Shown one piece after another: positions 6,293 through 11,062 of a DNA stretch of 12,065 nt. Under the pieces are notes generated by a model that was not told the DNA's origin, did not search any database, and saw nothing but the letters and a program-made list of their open reading frames with translations. The number at the start of each line of letters is the position of its first letter. Positions within the stretch are counted from its first letter, which is position 1. Where the stretch lies: positions 1 to 12,065 of the forward strand of contig JAPSGG010000012.1 in the NCBI GenBank assembly GCA_031177845.1. The letters are read 5' to 3'. Position numbers and translations under genes: made by a program. The DNA comes from Chromatiales bacterium (GTDB lineage: Bacteria; Pseudomonadota; Gammaproteobacteria; JACCYU01).

Positions 6293-6526
6293 GTTTATAT
6301 CCTCCTGGCTGAAACACTGCAGGTCGGAGATCAAGTCTGGGCCGGCGCTGAAGATGCGCCCGGGAACAAGAGGGAGGGAGTGACCGCCCGCTTCTACCTT
6401 CCTATTAGCAATATCGATGCCTGCGGTGCCGCGGCCGCCTGAATCGGTTCCGCCGACACAAACGGCCGATAGGCACGGCTGCGAACCATCCGCCGGCTAG
6501 GCACGAACCGCGGCAAGGCTGATCTT
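6293..6526. other. Divergent non-coding region between the 105-aa protein and the repressor
   Basis: No convincing gene lies here. The only identified signal is the AGGAGG at about 6301-6306 (minus strand) serving the GTG start at 6292. It must also hold the promoter of the minus-strand pair, but I see no clear -35/-10 pair. The repressor operator and promoter begin at 6527. Confidence 0.4.
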
Positions 6527-6539
6527 TACCAATTTGGTA
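6527..6539. promoter_or_regulatory. TACC-N5-GGTA operator upstream of the repressor gene
   Basis: TACCAATTTGGTA is a perfect palindrome around its central base. The same TACC-N5-GGTA pattern occurs at 7642-7654 and 7667-7679. An extra half-site follows at once (GGTA, 6542-6545), giving a direct repeat TTGGTATTGGTAT. The site lies 63 bp before the repressor ATG and about 28 bp upstream of its proposed -35 box. It is therefore better placed for activation, long-range repression or control of a divergent promoter than for direct blocking of this promoter. Confidence 0.65.
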
Positions 6540-6567
6540 TTGGTATATGCTTGGCGTGGGTTAGACA

Positions 6568-6596
6568 TTTACCCCGCCAGTAAATTGACTTCTAAT
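6568..6596 (+). promoter_or_regulatory. Candidate repressor promoter giving a leaderless mRNA
   Basis: A -35-like TTTACC (6568-6573) and a -10-like TCTAAT (6591-6596, five of six to TATAAT) are separated by 17 bp. The expected start, 6-7 nt downstream of the -10, falls on or next to the A of the repressor ATG at 6603. No Shine-Dalgarno sequence precedes that ATG. The symmetric TTTAC-N7-GTAAA (6568-6584) overlaps the -35 region and could be a further regulatory site. Confidence 0.45.
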
Positions 6597-6602
6597 AGCG
6601 GT

Positions 6603-7298
6603 ATGGATATCTCCGAGATCCGAAGAAGAAATCTGAGGCTCATCATCGAGCAGTGCTTCAATGGAACGGCGGCCGAGTTGGCACGGGCGCTGGGCAAGCA
6701 AGCTTCTGAGATATCCAGGATCTTCAGCTCCAGACCAGAGCATCGCCGGAACGTCGGGTCGCGGCTTGCGCGGCAGATAGAAACGCTGCTGGGACAAGAG
6801 GCGGGTTGGATGGACCGGCAGCAAATGGGATTACAGGATCACCTCGAAGCCAGTGCCAGCCCGAATAATGATGCGCCGGCAGCCGACACGCGCAAGCGCA
6901 TATCCATCATCAAGCGCATACCCATCATTTCGTCGGTACAGGCACAGGATGTGGCTTCCGTCAGCCATTTCCGCCCGCATGCGATGCAGGCGAAGGAGTG
7001 GATTACAGTGACCGCGAAGGTGGGAGATCGCGCCTACGCCCTGTGCGTGGTAGGCGATTCGATGGAGCCCAAGTTCCCCGAAGGCTGCACCATCATCGTC
7101 GATCCCGATGTGGAGCCCGTCCATGGTTCGTTCGTGATCGCGCTACTTGGCGATGTCGGTCAGATCACCTTCAAACAGCTCGTCGAAGACGGCAGGCGTT
7201 ATCTCAAGCCCCTCAACCCGCGCTACCCCGTCATGCAGATGGACGATCGAGTGACGATCTGCGGCGTGATCAAGCAGATGATCATGAACTTCGACTGA
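6603..7298 (+). CDS. XRE-family / S24 peptidase phage-type repressor (CI/LexA-like)
   Basis: The 231-aa product has the two-domain layout of phage repressors. An N-terminal helix-turn-helix domain (residues 1-70) contains GTAAELARALGKQASEISRI and ends near GQEAGWMD. A linker rich in Ala, Asn and Asp follows. The C-terminal S24 domain (about 105-231) has GDSME with nucleophile Ser153, TFKQL with general base Lys191, and the closing VTICGVIKQ strand. Such repressors dimerise, block early promoters, and are inactivated by RecA-stimulated self-cleavage. The cleavage motif, usually VQAG, reads SVQAQDVA here (Ala114-Gln115), so cleavage may be impaired. The start at 6603 is preferred over a TTG at 6534 because the HTH begins there and the TTG lies inside the operator. 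It probably controls the recombination operon downstream, whose promoter carries the same palindrome as its own upstream region. Confidence 0.9.
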   Translation: MDISEIRRRNLRLIIEQCFNGTAAELARALGKQASEISRIFSSRPEHRRNVGSRLARQIETLLGQEAGWMDRQQMGLQDHLEASASPNNDAPAADTRKRISIIKRIPIISSVQAQDVASVSHFRPHAMQAKEWITVTAKVGDRAYALCVVGDSMEPKFPEGCTIIVDPDVEPVHGSFVIALLGDVGQITFKQLVEDGRRYLKPLNPRYPVMQMDDRVTICGVIKQMIMNFD

Positions 7299-7641
7299 AC
7301 CGCCCTTGCCTAAAAGGCAAGGGGTCCCATCGGTATCGGCGGTGGCTGACTTAGAATCTCCCGCTCGGCTGCGCAGTGCGCACCACTCACTGCCCCCCCT
7401 TTCATAAAGGGGGTTGATCGACGCAAGGCCTCGAGCAGGGGATTAATTCCGAGCGCACACATCCACAAAACTGGGCTCCCGTTCGCAGTGTTCACAGTTC
7501 GCCAGTTCATGCTTCGTCTGGAGCCTGCCCCGGAACTGATCCGGGGACGAGGGGTTTCCAACATCCCCGATTAGGATACCAAGCACCCTTCCGCTCCGGC
7601 CTCTTTGAGGCGCCCTTGAAAACCGGCCGCAGTCCCCAATA
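7299..7641. other. Hairpin-rich non-coding region between repressor and recombination genes
   Basis: About 340 bp have no believable gene; the frames that stay open (minus strand) have atypical composition and no ribosome binding site. Three perfect stem-loops stand out. They are CCCTTGCC/GGCAAGGG (7303-7310 and 7316-7323, 5-nt loop), CCCCCTTT/AAAGGGGG (7395-7402 and 7406-7413, 3-nt loop) and CCCCGGA/TCCGGGG (7528-7534 and 7540-7546, 5-nt loop). None is followed by a T-run on the plus strand. The first, 4 nt past the repressor stop, may still protect or end its mRNA. The others could be part of a small RNA, an origin-like or attachment site, or a repeat family. Confidence 0.45.
7303..7323 (+). 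repeat. Perfect 8-bp stem-loop just after the repressor stop codon
   Basis: CCCTTGCC and GGCAAGGG flank the loop TAAAA. The position, 4 nt after the stop codon, suggests a 3' end structure for the repressor mRNA, but the U-tract of an intrinsic terminator is missing. Confidence 0.6.
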
Positions 7642-7654
7642 TACCTTCCTGGTA
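7642..7654. promoter_or_regulatory. TACC-N5-GGTA operator, distal copy at recombination operon
   Basis: TACCTTCCTGGTA matches the half-sites of the operator at 6527-6539, and the flanks extend the symmetry to ATACC-N5-GGTAT. It ends at the edge of the proposed -35 hexamer (7655-7660). Its centre is 25 bp from that of the proximal copy. Between the two, TACCAATTT (7657-7665) repeats the first nine bases of the repressor-side operator, giving a likely weak third site. Confidence 0.65.
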
Positions 7655-7683
7655 TGTACCAATTTCTACCTTTCTGGTATAAT
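7655..7683 (+). promoter_or_regulatory. Promoter of the recombination operon
   Basis: A consensus -10 box TATAAT (7678-7683) is preceded by a 17-bp spacer and a weak -35 (TGTACC, 7655-7660). Transcription would start near 7690, leaving a leader of about 86 nt before the first ATG. The proximal operator lies in the spacer and runs into the -10 box, so repressor binding should exclude RNA polymerase. The weak -35 with a perfect -10 could also mean that an activator helps. Confidence 0.6.
7667..7679. promoter_or_regulatory. TACC-N5-GGTA operator, proximal copy over the -10 box
   Basis: TACCTTTCTGGTA shares both half-sites and the 5-bp spacing with the sites at 6527-6539 and 7642-7654. Its last two bases (TA) are the first two of the TATAAT -10 box. 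The predicted ligand is the S24 repressor encoded just upstream; this is inferred from the shared sites and not shown directly. Confidence 0.7.
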
Positions 7684-7775
7684 TTGGTCGTTGAAATCAG
7701 TAGCCGAAAGATGCCGCCGGGCCGGATCGATGACCGATGTAGGCCACGTGGCAAACCGTATTAGGAGTGAACATC

Positions 7776-8585
7776 ATGCAACGATCGACCGGCCATTCCG
7801 AGGCCGTCCATAAGGCGCCCCGCAACCCCGCGAAGCCTCAACGCAAGCGCGCGATGCGGGTCGATTCACCAAATACGCAATCAGACGTCGGTTCTGACAC
7901 CAGAGGACAGGCTATGCACGACGACGCAAATGTCTTCGGCGCCGAGGATAACGGCGACGCCTGGGCGCACCAGCTCGAGCTCGAACAGGAACAAAAGGCG
8001 ATGGAAGCCGCCGCGCTCGACAAACGACAGGATAATTACTTTGCCCAGCTCGCCAAGATCGATGTCAGCGAGCATGTGGAGAAGAAGGGTGAGTTTTCCT
8101 ATCTTTCGTGGGCATGGGCGATCGACCGGCTGCGCCGGGCTTTCCCCGATGCAACCTGGGAGGTCAAGCGATTTGATGGCGCACCCTATCTGAAGACGGA
8201 TTGCGGCTACTTCGTAGAGGTGGCGGTAACCGTCGCGGGCGTGACGCTGTCGCAGATTCATCCCGTGCTAGATGGCCGCAACCGTCCGATCGCCGAGCCG
8301 AATGCGTTCGACATCAATACCAGCATTCAGCGCTGTCTGGTCAAGGCCATTGCCCTGCACGGTCTCGGGCTGTATGTCTACGCTGGCGAGGACCTGCCGG
8401 AGGGCGCGGAGCCTCCCAAAGTAACCGAAGAGCAACAGGCCAGCTTGAAGGAATTGATCGAGGGTGTCGGGGCGGATACGGCCCGTTTTCTTGAATACTT
8501 CAAGATCGAGAAGCTTGGCGACCTGCCCGCCGCTGACTACCAGCGCGCTGTGAATGCCCTGGAAAGGAAAAGGAAGGCAGCATGA
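7776..8585 (+). CDS. DUF1071/Sak-type single-strand annealing protein
   Basis: The 269-aa product belongs to the phage annealing proteins of the DUF1071 (SSAP/Sak) group. These coat single-stranded DNA and anneal it to complementary strands in RecA-independent recombination. The core, about residues 87-208, shows NYFAQLAKIDVSEHVEKKG, then FSYLSWAWAIDRL, YPDAT-like AFPDATWEV, PVLDGRNRPI, NAFDINTSIQRCLVKAIA and LYVYAGEDLPEG, all diagnostic. Residues 1-46 are basic and low in complexity. A C-terminal helical tail (220-269) could contact SSB or the exonuclease. AGGAG lies 8 nt before the ATG at 7776; the GTG at 7767 overlaps that site and is unlikely. A second start, ATG 7914 with AGAGGA upstream, would give 223 aa and keep the whole core. 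It is the first gene of an operon and overlaps the exonuclease by ATGA. Confidence 0.88.
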   Translation: MQRSTGHSEAVHKAPRNPAKPQRKRAMRVDSPNTQSDVGSDTRGQAMHDDANVFGAEDNGDAWAHQLELEQEQKAMEAAALDKRQDNYFAQLAKIDVSEHVEKKGEFSYLSWAWAIDRLRRAFPDATWEVKRFDGAPYLKTDCGYFVEVAVTVAGVTLSQIHPVLDGRNRPIAEPNAFDINTSIQRCLVKAIALHGLGLYVYAGEDLPEGAEPPKVTEEQQASLKELIEGVGADTARFLEYFKIEKLGDLPAADYQRAVNALERKRKAA

Positions 8586-9457
8586 CCTCGGCTGTGAGGC
8601 TCGAACAGGGATCCAATGCGTGGCACAAACATCGCGCGCTGCATGCCAACGCCAGCGAAGCGGCGACGGTGATGAAGGTATCCCCTTGGGAACCGGACAC
8701 TTGGTTCAAGCTATGGCAGTTGAAGACCGGGAGAATGGTAAGAACAGGTGCCGCGCCCTGCCTGCGGCGCGGCGCCGACATGGAAGCCAGAGCAAGGGCC
8801 GCTTACGAAAAGCTGACGGGCAACATCATGCAGCCTATGGTCTTGCAAAAGGACGGATGGCTGTCTGCCAGCCTGGATGGCATCAGCTTCAACGGCGATC
8901 TGATCCTGGAGATAAAGTGTCCGCCGAGCGGCGAAGCGTCTCACACTTGGCAGCAGGCCCAAGCCGGCTCAATTCCTGAGCACTACTACTGGCAGTTGCA
9001 GCATCAGCTGCACGTCTCGGATGTGCCGACTGCCCATTTTTGGGTCTTCGATGGAGAAAAGGGCTTACTGATCGAGAAACTGCCCAATGTCGACGACCAG
9101 GACAGGCTGATCAATACCTGGCGCGATTTCTGGCAGTATATTGAAACCGACACCCCGCCTGAACTGACCGACAAAGATATCCTGCTGCGCGACGACGCCG
9201 AATGGACGTCAGCCGCGAACGCCTATCTGGCCGCCAAAGAAGAACTGCGACGCGCACAGGAGTCTGCGGATGCAGCAAGACAAGCGCTCATTGCACTGGC
9301 GGATCATACGCGGGTCGCGGGCGCGGGCTTGACCGTGACTCGATACTGGCAGGATGGGCGGATCAATTACGCTGCGATTCTGGAATTAAAAGGGGTGCAC
9401 CTTGATCGATATCGCGCCCCCAGGACACAGCAGGTCCGGATAACCACTGAAAGCTGA
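8582..9457 (+). CDS. YqaJ-like viral recombinase / lambda-type exonuclease
   Basis: The 291-aa product is a PD-(D/E)XK nuclease of the YqaJ/lambda-exonuclease family, which resects double-stranded ends 5' to 3' to create single strands for the partner annealing protein. Key features are an N-terminal WHKHR-type substrate segment with the conserved SEAATVM near 25-31, and the acidic helix RRGADMEARARAAYE (62-76). The active-site sequence follows: SASLDG with Asp99 and LEIKCP with Glu110 and Lys112, then YYWQLQHQL (136-144) on the next helix. The C-terminal part has a coiled-coil-like segment (about 219-250) and the family tail VTRYWQDGRINYA. Its ATG overlaps the stop of the annealing protein gene (ATGA), so the two proteins should be made together. 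Neighbours identify an exo/annealase pair as in lambda Red or SXT elements. Confidence 0.9.
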   Translation: MTSAVRLEQGSNAWHKHRALHANASEAATVMKVSPWEPDTWFKLWQLKTGRMVRTGAAPCLRRGADMEARARAAYEKLTGNIMQPMVLQKDGWLSASLDGISFNGDLILEIKCPPSGEASHTWQQAQAGSIPEHYYWQLQHQLHVSDVPTAHFWVFDGEKGLLIEKLPNVDDQDRLINTWRDFWQYIETDTPPELTDKDILLRDDAEWTSAANAYLAAKEELRRAQESADAARQALIALADHTRVAGAGLTVTRYWQDGRINYAAILELKGVHLDRYRAPRTQQVRITTES

Positions 9458-9470
9458 CGACCGAATAGGT

Positions 9471-9489
9471 AACCTGAGTAAATCAGGTT
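9471..9489 (+). repeat. Stem-loop after the exonuclease gene
   Basis: AACCTGA and TCAGGTT form a perfect 7-bp stem with loop GTAAA, 14 bp past the exonuclease stop. There is no T-run, so it is at best a weak or Rho-assisted 3' end. The rest of 9490-9673 holds no gene; a distant 8-bp inverted repeat (TACTCTCG 9537-9544 and CGAGAGTA 9638-9645) is the only other pattern seen. Confidence 0.45.
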
Positions 9490-9673
9490 CATGAGCCTAT
9501 CTCGGACTAACCGTCACGTTGCCTTGTAGTCCGATCTACTCTCGTCTTTATCCGCTAATACCGGACCCAGGCGAAGCAGCAACTGAGAGCAGCCTTGCTC
9601 CTGCACTCGCGCCACAGCAGTCCCGCGTAGGAATAACCGAGAGTAGCGAGGGGCTCTTCAACATCCATACAGA

Positions 9674-10270
9674 TTAGAACTGGGACTCGCCTTCCGCGCT
9701 GACGACATTGGTCGAAAATCGGGCGACCGACTTGCTGACCCGGTCGTGCTGGCGGTCCTGCTGCTGCGCGGCCGGACTGATGCAGTTGCTCATTTGGAGC
9801 TCTGGCGGCTCCATGGAGAACATGAATGGAGCCGTTTTGCCCAGCGCGCTTAAGCCGAGTAGGCTGCGAGACGACCCCGGGAATACGGCGACCTCAACGT
9901 CGTGGATCATGCAGGCTCCACCGATGTTGATGCTGCCAATCCGGTATACTGGTACGATAAGCGTTCTGCCGTCTGCCAAGATACCCTGCAGGCGCTTGAC
10001 GTAGGTCGCGCCGTCCTTGGCTTGCAGCACCGCGAGCGTGTCCTCGTTGATCGTCATGTAGCCGGCGCCGGTATCGACAAGATAGTCGAGGTTGCCGAAA
10101 CCTTCGACGTGCACATCGACGTAGTACGTGTCCGCGCCCTTGTTCTTCATGGGTACGGTCGCGGATGCTGCCATAACGTGCCCGGGCGTTACGGCAAGAA
10201 TACCCAAGATCGCAGACAGAATTCTAAGCACCCCCCCTCCAATATCGTATCCGAACTGTCGCCTAATCAT
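9674..10270 (-). CDS. Secreted retropepsin-like (clan AA) aspartic protease
   Basis: The 198-aa product starts with a basic segment, then a hydrophobic helix (residues about 15-28) and a possible cleavage at HVMA-AS near 35, so it is predicted to be periplasmic. The mature part carries one retropepsin-like domain. LVDTGAGYMTIN (64-75) has the catalytic D66-T67-G68. A flap-like strand follows at about 96-108 (GILADGRTLIVPVYRI), and the hydrophobic-Gly motif near SLLGLSAL (136-143) comes with a closing strand. Such proteins act as dimers because each gives one Asp. The C-terminal 35 residues are Gln, Asp and Ser rich and look disordered. GGAGAG lies about 9 nt before the ATG. It is transcribed away from the small periplasmic protein gene. 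Natural substrates of these bacterial proteases are mostly unknown. Confidence 0.83.
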   Translation of the reverse strand: MIRRQFGYDIGGGVLRILSAILGILAVTPGHVMAASATVPMKNKGADTYYVDVHVEGFGNLDYLVDTGAGYMTINEDTLAVLQAKDGATYVKRLQGILADGRTLIVPVYRIGSINIGGACMIHDVEVAVFPGSSRSLLGLSALGKTAPFMFSMEPPELQMSNCISPAAQQQDRQHDRVSKSVARFSTNVVSAEGESQF

Positions 10271-10633
10271 TGCCGGGACTCTCCGTTGCCCTATTCGGGA
10301 TCGCCCGTCTCAGAGCGAACATACCAGAGCACATCCGGGGTGCACCACTCGGCCGGCACTAAAGGCGACGTTTCTCGGACAAATGGTCATAGCAGCATAG
10401 GCCAGCGGTGGTCCGGCTGGATGAACGTGCCGCGGGTAGCTAACTCAAGCAAGCACCCGAATCCTCATGTGAGGATTTCTCTCAGCGTTGGATGTCGCCG
10501 CCTAGCAGTGTAAAGTGTCCGCCTGATGAAGGCGCCCGCCATCGCAAAACCGCGCTGAATCTGGGCGCTGCCATGCCTGCCAGTGCCACCACGTGCAGTT
10601 CCAAAACGGCCCATAAGACGAGGTACTCGATCG
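10271..10633. other. Divergent intergenic region with a palindrome
   Basis: This 363-bp stretch separates two divergent genes. No supported gene is present; an ORF start at 10583 belongs in frame to the next gene but lacks a ribosome binding site. The one clear element is the 16-bp palindrome at 10461-10476. I found no strong -35/-10 pair for either gene. Confidence 0.4.
10461..10476. promoter_or_regulatory. Palindrome between divergent protease and periplasmic-protein genes
   Basis: ATCCTCA-TG-TGAGGAT is a perfect 7+7 inverted repeat with a 2-bp centre. The loop is too short for an RNA hairpin terminator. A protein-binding operator is a better reading, although the distance to the genes (190 bp to one start, 158 bp to the other) leaves its target open. 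Confidence 0.35.
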
Positions 10634-11062
10634 ATGAGCCATAACAAGAACCGGCATCTTACCATGCTCTTCGGCGCAAGCTTGGTTGCCTGCACATCGC
10701 CCGCCTTGAGCGCCGACTCCGTGCGCGTTGAACTCAACAAGCTAGAACCGCAGGAAGGCGCCTGTCGGGCGTATCTGGTATTCGAAAATCAGACTCAGCG
10801 TAGCTTTTCGGGGCTCACGCTAGATCTGGTCATGTTCGACAAGGAAGGCGTCATCGCCAAGCGGCTAGCGGTCAACGCGGCGCCGCTTCCTGCCGACAAG
10901 ACCAGCGTTAAGCTGTTCGACATCGAGGGCCTCGCCTGTGACAACATCGGGCGTATCCTCGTCAATGACGTGCTCGATTGTCAGGACGAGAGCGGCGACG
11001 TCTCGGACTGCGTCGGGCTAATCGACGCGTCATCACGCAGCGATGTGGCTCTGAACAAGTAG
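10634..11062 (+). CDS. Small exported protein of unknown function, possible lipoprotein
   Basis: The 142-aa product has a short basic start (MSHNKNRHLT), a hydrophobic stretch MLFGASLVAC and then TSPALSADS. SLVAC fits a lipobox, which would make it a lipoprotein after cleavage before Cys; ALSA-D is an alternative signal peptidase I site. The mature domain is a predicted beta sandwich with the blocks ACRAYLVFENQTQRSFSGLTLDLVMFDKEG, then IAKRLAVNAAPLPADKTSVKLFDIEG and a C-terminal section with four Cys (CDNIGRI, LDCQDE, SDCVGL), probably disulfide-bonded in the periplasm. I recall similar proteins annotated only as hypothetical. The start at 10634 is chosen over a GTG at 10583 because the signal sequence begins there and GAGG lies about 10 nt upstream. 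A regulatory palindrome lies upstream. Confidence 0.75.
   Translation: MSHNKNRHLTMLFGASLVACTSPALSADSVRVELNKLEPQEGACRAYLVFENQTQRSFSGLTLDLVMFDKEGVIAKRLAVNAAPLPADKTSVKLFDIEGLACDNIGRILVNDVLDCQDESGDVSDCVGLIDASSRSDVALNK

Follow-up and report, generated by a model that had tools for sequence, protein, structure and literature searches.

In phage lambda, the repressor gene cI is followed by the operator and promoter OL/PL and then by the recombination genes exo and bet, with additional control exerted at OR, and the two regulators CI and Cro share operators. Another described system of relevance here is the repressor of PDB entry 5d50, which we take to be Rep of Salmonella phage SPC32H. This repressor is described as a tetramer that is released by an antirepressor (PMC9638917).

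The DNA analysed in this work is a stretch of 12,065 nucleotides (the window), which constitutes contig C338 of a draft genome (2.1 Mb, 78.5% complete). Its + strand bears three phage-type genes, which code for a repressor, an annealing protein and an exonuclease. We think that the locus is best explained as a lambda-like left-arm unit, in which a CI-like repressor would act on TACC-N5-GGTA palindromes at four sites (O1 to O4) and shut off sak and the YqaJ exonuclease gene. As judged from sequence comparison, we assign to this explanation a probability of roughly 0.86. The observations behind it are the sites, their spacing and place, the identities of the genes and the recurrence of the arrangement in related phages.

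Genes of the Locus and Their Setting

The reading frames of the three genes are all uninterrupted:

6603-7298, + strand, CI-like S24 repressor of 231 aa (Pfam PF00717, E=1e-19)
7776-8585, + strand, Sak-type single-strand annealing protein (PF06378, E=7e-57), with an alternative GTG start at 7767
8582-9457, + strand, YqaJ/RecE-like exonuclease (PF09588, E=2.5e-24)

Upstream of the repressor, no frame of at least 50 aa lies wholly within 6335-6527, so that neither a divergent cro nor a second regulator frame of this size is found there, and the right arm therefore seems lost. Integrase and structural families are absent among the 14 window proteins compared with PHROGs, and a complete prophage was not recognized on this contig. 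Of the flanking proteins, three have matches to PHROG families without known function, and one of these also weakly matches an endolysin family. The search for tRNA genes in the window gave none, direct repeats are present but include no convincing attachment-site pair, and the stretch is not set apart by its GC content. The right-hand neighbours, an aspartyl-protease-like gene and the gene at 10583-11062, are 66-69% conserved in two genomes of the same family, in which the left-hand genes were not found in the same order. In genome G001 the frames after the protease gene read as mutS, according to translations read by eye, and at 9457-9674 of the window the phage recombination genes occupy the place where mutS appears to follow the protease gene in that genome. 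The one MutS match of the host genome is located on contig C113.

Candidate Operator Sites and Putative Promoter

The sites and promoter elements in the two intergenic stretches are the following:

6527-6539, O1, exact TACC-N5-GGTA, 76 bp before the repressor ATG, OR-like by analogy with viral loci and named phages
6570-6582, O2, one-mismatch site TACCCCGCCAGTA, 33 bp before the repressor ATG
7642-7654, O3, exact TACC-N5-GGTA, 344 bp beyond the repressor end, OL-like
7655-7660, + strand, TGTACC at the -35 position, matching TTGACA in 3/6 bases at a 17-bp spacer
7657-7665, + strand, nine-base half-copy TACCAATTT, between O3 and O4
7667-7679, O4, exact TACC-N5-GGTA, 25 bp from O3, overlapping the -10 box
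7678-7683, + strand, perfect -10 box TATAAT of the putative sak-exo promoter, extended by TG at 7675-7676

An earlier note on this DNA had described the three exact palindromes, the half-copy between the last two and an overlap of the last one with the -10 box. Its coordinates proved exact and the window contains no other exact site; the half-copy is where it was said to be, and TATAAT starts in the last TA of O4. O2 was absent from that note. The half-copy has the same letters as the first nine bases of the 6527 site, and in 19 viral relatives its place is instead occupied by a -35-like box. The promoter scan of 6350-7800 called no two-hexamer promoter. From the -10 box and from the geometry of the -35 position, which is as in the viral loci, we infer a sak-exo promoter with the O3/O4 pair over it, co-directional with the repressor and downstream of it.

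On the other side of the repressor, where lambda has an OR trio between the repressor gene and a divergent cro, the window has one exact and one imperfect site. The middle OR-like site, which lies near -50 in relatives, is absent upstream of the window repressor. Besides these sites, the first nine bases of O3 recur in TACCTTCCTATTA at 6395-6407, which is 132 bp to the left of O1, perhaps as a remnant site or by chance.

It could be argued that the palindromes are a functionless cluster formed by chance, as their count in the whole genome is at background and one-mismatch matches occur elsewhere in the window (8 matches in total with one mismatch allowed, against 1.68 expected). We find this explanation hardly credible. 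Exact TACC-N5-GGTA occurs 3 times in the whole window against 0.06 expected, and three sites were obtained in 0/200 dinucleotide shuffles of the window. Shuffling the intergenic stretches 6335-6602 and 7299-7766 in the same manner 5000 times gave a mean of 0.009 sites, never three of them and never a pair 25 bp apart. Moreover, spacing and place recur in the viral relatives described below.

The earlier note had held that the proposal would fail if the motif were common at unrelated genes at background frequency. As for the frequency, this concern is borne out, since the draft genome has 22 places with the motif and 29 with its reversed form. Of the 19 places beyond the window, however, 18 are covered by stop-to-stop frames with a length of 80 aa or more (the exception is on contig C270). 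All 19 were examined with up to 1.5 kb on either side, and neither the frame over the site nor the longest frames of the stretch (four at most) include a repressor relative. A genome-wide regulon was rejected because the motif is at background and its other places are, with that one exception, within reading frames. What supports the proposal is therefore the clustering within the window and the comparison with relatives.

Recurrence of the Sites in Viral Loci

Viral contigs were searched for two TACC-N5-GGTA sites 9 to 15 bp apart, which yielded at least 120 stretches, and a control pair of equal base content, CCAT-N5-ATGG, yielded 111. An un-iterated profile of the repressor family found a member within 2.5 kb of the pair in 18/80 motif loci (of the 120 listed) versus 0/80 control loci (of the 111), and a profile of the DNA-binding domain alone did so in 13/80 (of the 120 listed) versus 0/80 (of the 111). 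When the latter profile was iterated (E<=1e-14) and applied to whole stretches, the result was 27/120 listed motif loci versus 0/111 control stretches. The fetched stretch contains no family repressor in 93 of the 120 listed loci. Many repressor-less loci with gaps of 9 to 11 resemble, by eye, repeats inside replication-protein genes. Repeated TACC-N5-GGTA is seen, apparently inside phage replication-protein frames, in L254, L286, L293, L321, L323, L337 and others, and such repeats carry the same core palindrome as the operators.

In 21 of the 27 family loci the pair follows the repressor within 3.5 kb and on the same strand (not so in L275, L285, L293, L304, L305 and L337), and 19 non-redundant loci were left after removal of near-copies. 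An exact TACC-N5-GGTA is present at most 160 bp upstream of the repressor in 18 of these 19 loci, the exception being L353, and the next best half-site reaches 2, although the spacer of 5 is here partly given by construction, as the loci were selected with that motif. The start-to-start distance of the pair is 25 bp in 16 loci, 24 in two and 23 in one. Directly after the first site there is TTGNNN or TTTAC in all 19, and a -10 box of TATA or TATT type, read by eye, starts within the final TA of the second site in 15. The layout of the window matches that of the viral loci in its 25-bp pair and in the TATAAT that begins in the last TA of O4; its -35 position is poor, and TGG ahead of the TATAAT gives an extended -10.

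Regarding the genes behind the pair, 83 downstream frames were collected in 14 viral loci, and the 20 larger frames of 11 loci were compared with PHROGs. Annealing proteins are found in 6 of the 11 loci: Sak4-like in L309 and L292 (in the latter, a family of unknown function scores better), Erf in L314 and L265, and RecT in L272 and L287. Exonucleases follow the pair in L314, L272 and L287, and a single-strand binding protein in L253. No gene with a known role in recombination was recognized in the frames scanned of L348, L353, L257 and L346. These surveys support two ideas of the earlier note, that the motif belongs to this repressor and that it is linked to the annealase/exonuclease promoter, through the upstream sites, the recurrent 25-bp pair, the annealases behind the pair and the contrast with the control.

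The survey in the opposite direction started from protein similarity alone and covered 38 non-redundant loci. In each, the 200 bp preceding the repressor were scored for all 256 four-base half-sites, with spacers from 2 to 8. The commonest half-site is TACC (14/38 with any spacer); the runner-up, TTAC (11/38), mostly represents the same palindromes moved one base. TACC with spacer 4 occurs in 12/38 loci (mean of all half-sites 0.22), five of them (L482-L484, L487, L488) being mutually related. Spacer 5 is seen in one locus (L107) and spacer 7 in another (L481). In the 16 viral loci whose DNA-binding domain is most similar, no exact spacer-5 site lies near the repressor, and the DNA-readable relatives nearest by this domain have spacer 4, not 5. 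The lead of TACC among the protein-found relatives, together with their differing spacers, points to the half-site as a family trait and not to the spacer, so that the evidence for a spacer of 5 in the window is its own three sites. Upstream of the family repressors of L479, L482-L484, L487, L488 and L515, this operator class is present as a branch with spacer 4. Other members of the family use other half-sites, such as the TTAGC-like ones seen by eye upstream of the repressors of KO-TP1 and Chronis.

These surveys also bear on the idea that the sites are operators of another regulator, either Cro-like or a host factor, while the repressor binds elsewhere. Operator sharing between CI and Cro in lambda speaks for it, as do the spacer of 4 in the nearest DNA-readable relatives and the fact that binding of the repressor to the sites is itself a prediction. 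We nevertheless consider it quite improbable: the site class tracks the repressor family in the listed motif loci and not in the control, TACC is the top half-site upstream of relatives that were found by protein, and no second regulator frame that reaches 50 aa is wholly contained in the stretch 6335-6527. In addition, no E. coli-type LexA box with at most one mismatch is present in the window, where 3.2 would be expected by chance, although this consensus may not be that of the host.

Repressor Protein and Its Possible Release

The C-terminal S24 domain of the repressor is alignable with lambda CI and has the dyad Ser153 and Lys191 in the aligned columns; the Ser-Lys pair is kept in 118/119 repressor homologues. 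Its N-terminus gives no Pfam HTH match; PHROG regulator families that extend over residues 1-78 and 1-97, and the profile similarity to PDB 5d50, are signs of a possible helix-turn-helix domain. The scissile bond is Ala114-Gln115 in the window repressor versus Ala-Gly in lambda CI. Among the 119 homologues, this bond is Ala-Gly in 95, Ala-Lys in 12, Ala-Gln in 2 and Ala-Asp in 1. The homologues P0002-P0009, P0015 and P0017, all close to the window, have Lys or Asp after the Ala, and P0010-P0014 and P0016 have Gly. In the 70 family frames taken from loci there is Ala-Gly in 31, a gap in 19, Ala-Ser in 6 and others in the rest. Gln115 presumably occupies the same place as Gly85 of LexA. The Gly85Asp variant of LexA is given as the non-cleavable lexA3 form in PMC6363387. 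Because Gln115, and not Gly, follows the scissile Ala, SOS-cleavage induction should not be assumed, and it is uncertain whether the window repressor would be induced in this way.

The nearest repressor relatives (P0002-P0013, 55-70% identity) come from metagenomes, and the search of genome contigs and viral contigs with the repressor returned more distant relatives only. Close Sak proteins (E up to 1e-40) are not found among 369 genomes of the class besides the window's own; the host order is represented by 3 genomes in the collection. Five of the 16 close repressor relatives (P0002-P0017) share longest-contig size and sources with a listed Sak relative (repressor/Sak, longest contig):

P0003/P0128, 1681
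P0004/P0129, 4101
P0007/P0126, 56,636
P0012/P0134, 4211
P0016/P0135, 10,698

We infer from the equal sizes that the paired repressor and Sak relatives sit on the same contigs.

The upstream DNA of the closest relatives was read indirectly, via in-frame extensions of the proteins, which is weaker evidence than DNA. Such extensions reach -33 in five homologues, and three of them fit a site there: P0010, P0011 and P0014 have a Tyr codon at -11 and a Gly codon at -8, that is, TAY-NNN-NNN-GGN from -33, which is the place of O2. P0009 fits in part, with the Tyr kept and Ala at codon -8. The extension of P0008, which is joined to another domain, fits neither the Tyr nor the Gly. A repressor-proximal site is also at -33 in L287, L335 and PseuP_224, and O1 at -76 has no exact counterpart position in relatives. 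In P0008 (longest contig of 1788 bases) an ATP-cone domain (PF03477) precedes the family repressor within one reading frame, which could mean insertion of the element into a host gene or an assembly error in the contig.

A possible alternative, which we doubt, is that the window holds a decayed prophage remnant, with genuine ancestral operators and a circuit that no longer works. The lack of integrase and structural families among the 14 proteins would suit such decay, and so would the imperfect O2, the missing middle OR-like site, the poor -35 and Gln115 at the scissile bond. Against it, the three genes are uninterrupted, O3/O4 and TATAAT are perfect, repressor and Sak relatives are on contigs of equal size in the five pairs, and the homologues, with one exception, keep the Ser-Lys pair. 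This alternative is compatible with a lambda-like left-arm unit, as the remnant would once have worked that way. Less likely still, although worth considering, repressor, operators, sak and exonuclease gene might be a stand-alone chromosomal cassette without the rest of the phage, with the repressor having lost the scissile glycine and therefore being released by other means than RecA-driven cleavage. If so, it would be a private, switchable recombination system of a bacterial chromosome.

Proposed Circuit and Its Significance

Returning to the lambda-like left-arm unit, binding, repression, autoregulation and promoters are the predictions that it makes. The repressor would bind palindromes of 13 bp, the half-site being TACC and the spacer 5 bp. 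O1 and O2, before its own gene, would be OR-like, and O2 would probably cover the repressor's own promoter and so lead to self-limitation. O3 and O4 would be OL-like, with O4 placed over the extended -10 of a PL-like promoter. As O4 covers this element, bound repressor would shut off sak and the YqaJ exonuclease gene, and recombination by strand annealing would be switched on once the repressor is released.

We think that the main value of the analysis is a specific candidate DNA target (TACC half-sites separated by 4 or 5 bp) for a phage repressor family, which spans phages of Psychrobacter, Pseudomonas, Xanthomonas and E. coli as well as many viral contigs. The logic of the lambda left arm appears to be reused with at least four kinds of annealase, namely Sak in the window and Sak4, Erf and RecT in the viral loci. 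Should this be true, sequence would allow a prediction of the immunity groups to which these phages belong. A search of the open-licence full text of PMC gave no paper that names this operator.

Comparison with Known Systems

The N-terminal domain of the window repressor is similar to that of the PDB 5d50 repressor by profile (E=4.4e-5), and with the single sequence the match reaches only E=0.53. Nine named phage regions, chosen from protein matches, were inspected for TACC sites, and five of them have exact sites upstream of the repressor. These include Pseudomonas phage 5400 (spacer 5; -86 and +1018) and PseuP_224 (spacer 4; -72, -33, +66 and +92). JBD68 and Mcat9 have only one-mismatch sites near the repressor, KO-TP1 has no TACC site near it, and Chronis has none upstream and one-mismatch sites only, 449 and 815 bp beyond the gene.

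In the other three, sites also precede recombination genes. Xanthomonas phage Rb1 has CI, TACC-N4-GGTA sites (-123 and +754) and then annealing protein and exonuclease genes; it differs in its 4-bp spacer and in being a complete phage. Escherichia phage phiV10 (epsilon15-like as annotated) has exact spacer-5 sites on either side of the repressor (-69; +59 and +121), with RecET further on and more sites in the other direction, whereas its 194-aa repressor is annotated with HTH motifs only, its downstream sites are 62 bp apart and the phage is complete. Psychrobacter phage pOW20-A (spacer 5) shares with the window the sites upstream of the repressor (-103 and -53, and one with a mismatch at -70) and a 25-bp pair beyond the gene, before a recombinase-annotated gene; unlike the window, it is a complete phage with divergent genes, and four small frames stand between pair and recombinase.

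As in phage lambda, the repressor of the window is followed by co-directional candidate operators over the putative annealase/exonuclease promoter, candidate operators are also placed before the repressor, and the C-terminal domain of the latter aligns with that of lambda CI. In contrast to lambda, the half-site is TACC with a 5-bp spacer, Sak and YqaJ replace Bet and Exo, the contig is without the divergent right arm and the repressor is without Gly after the scissile Ala. The type of circuit is thus already known from lambda and from phages with related repressors, and the window adds another probable case.
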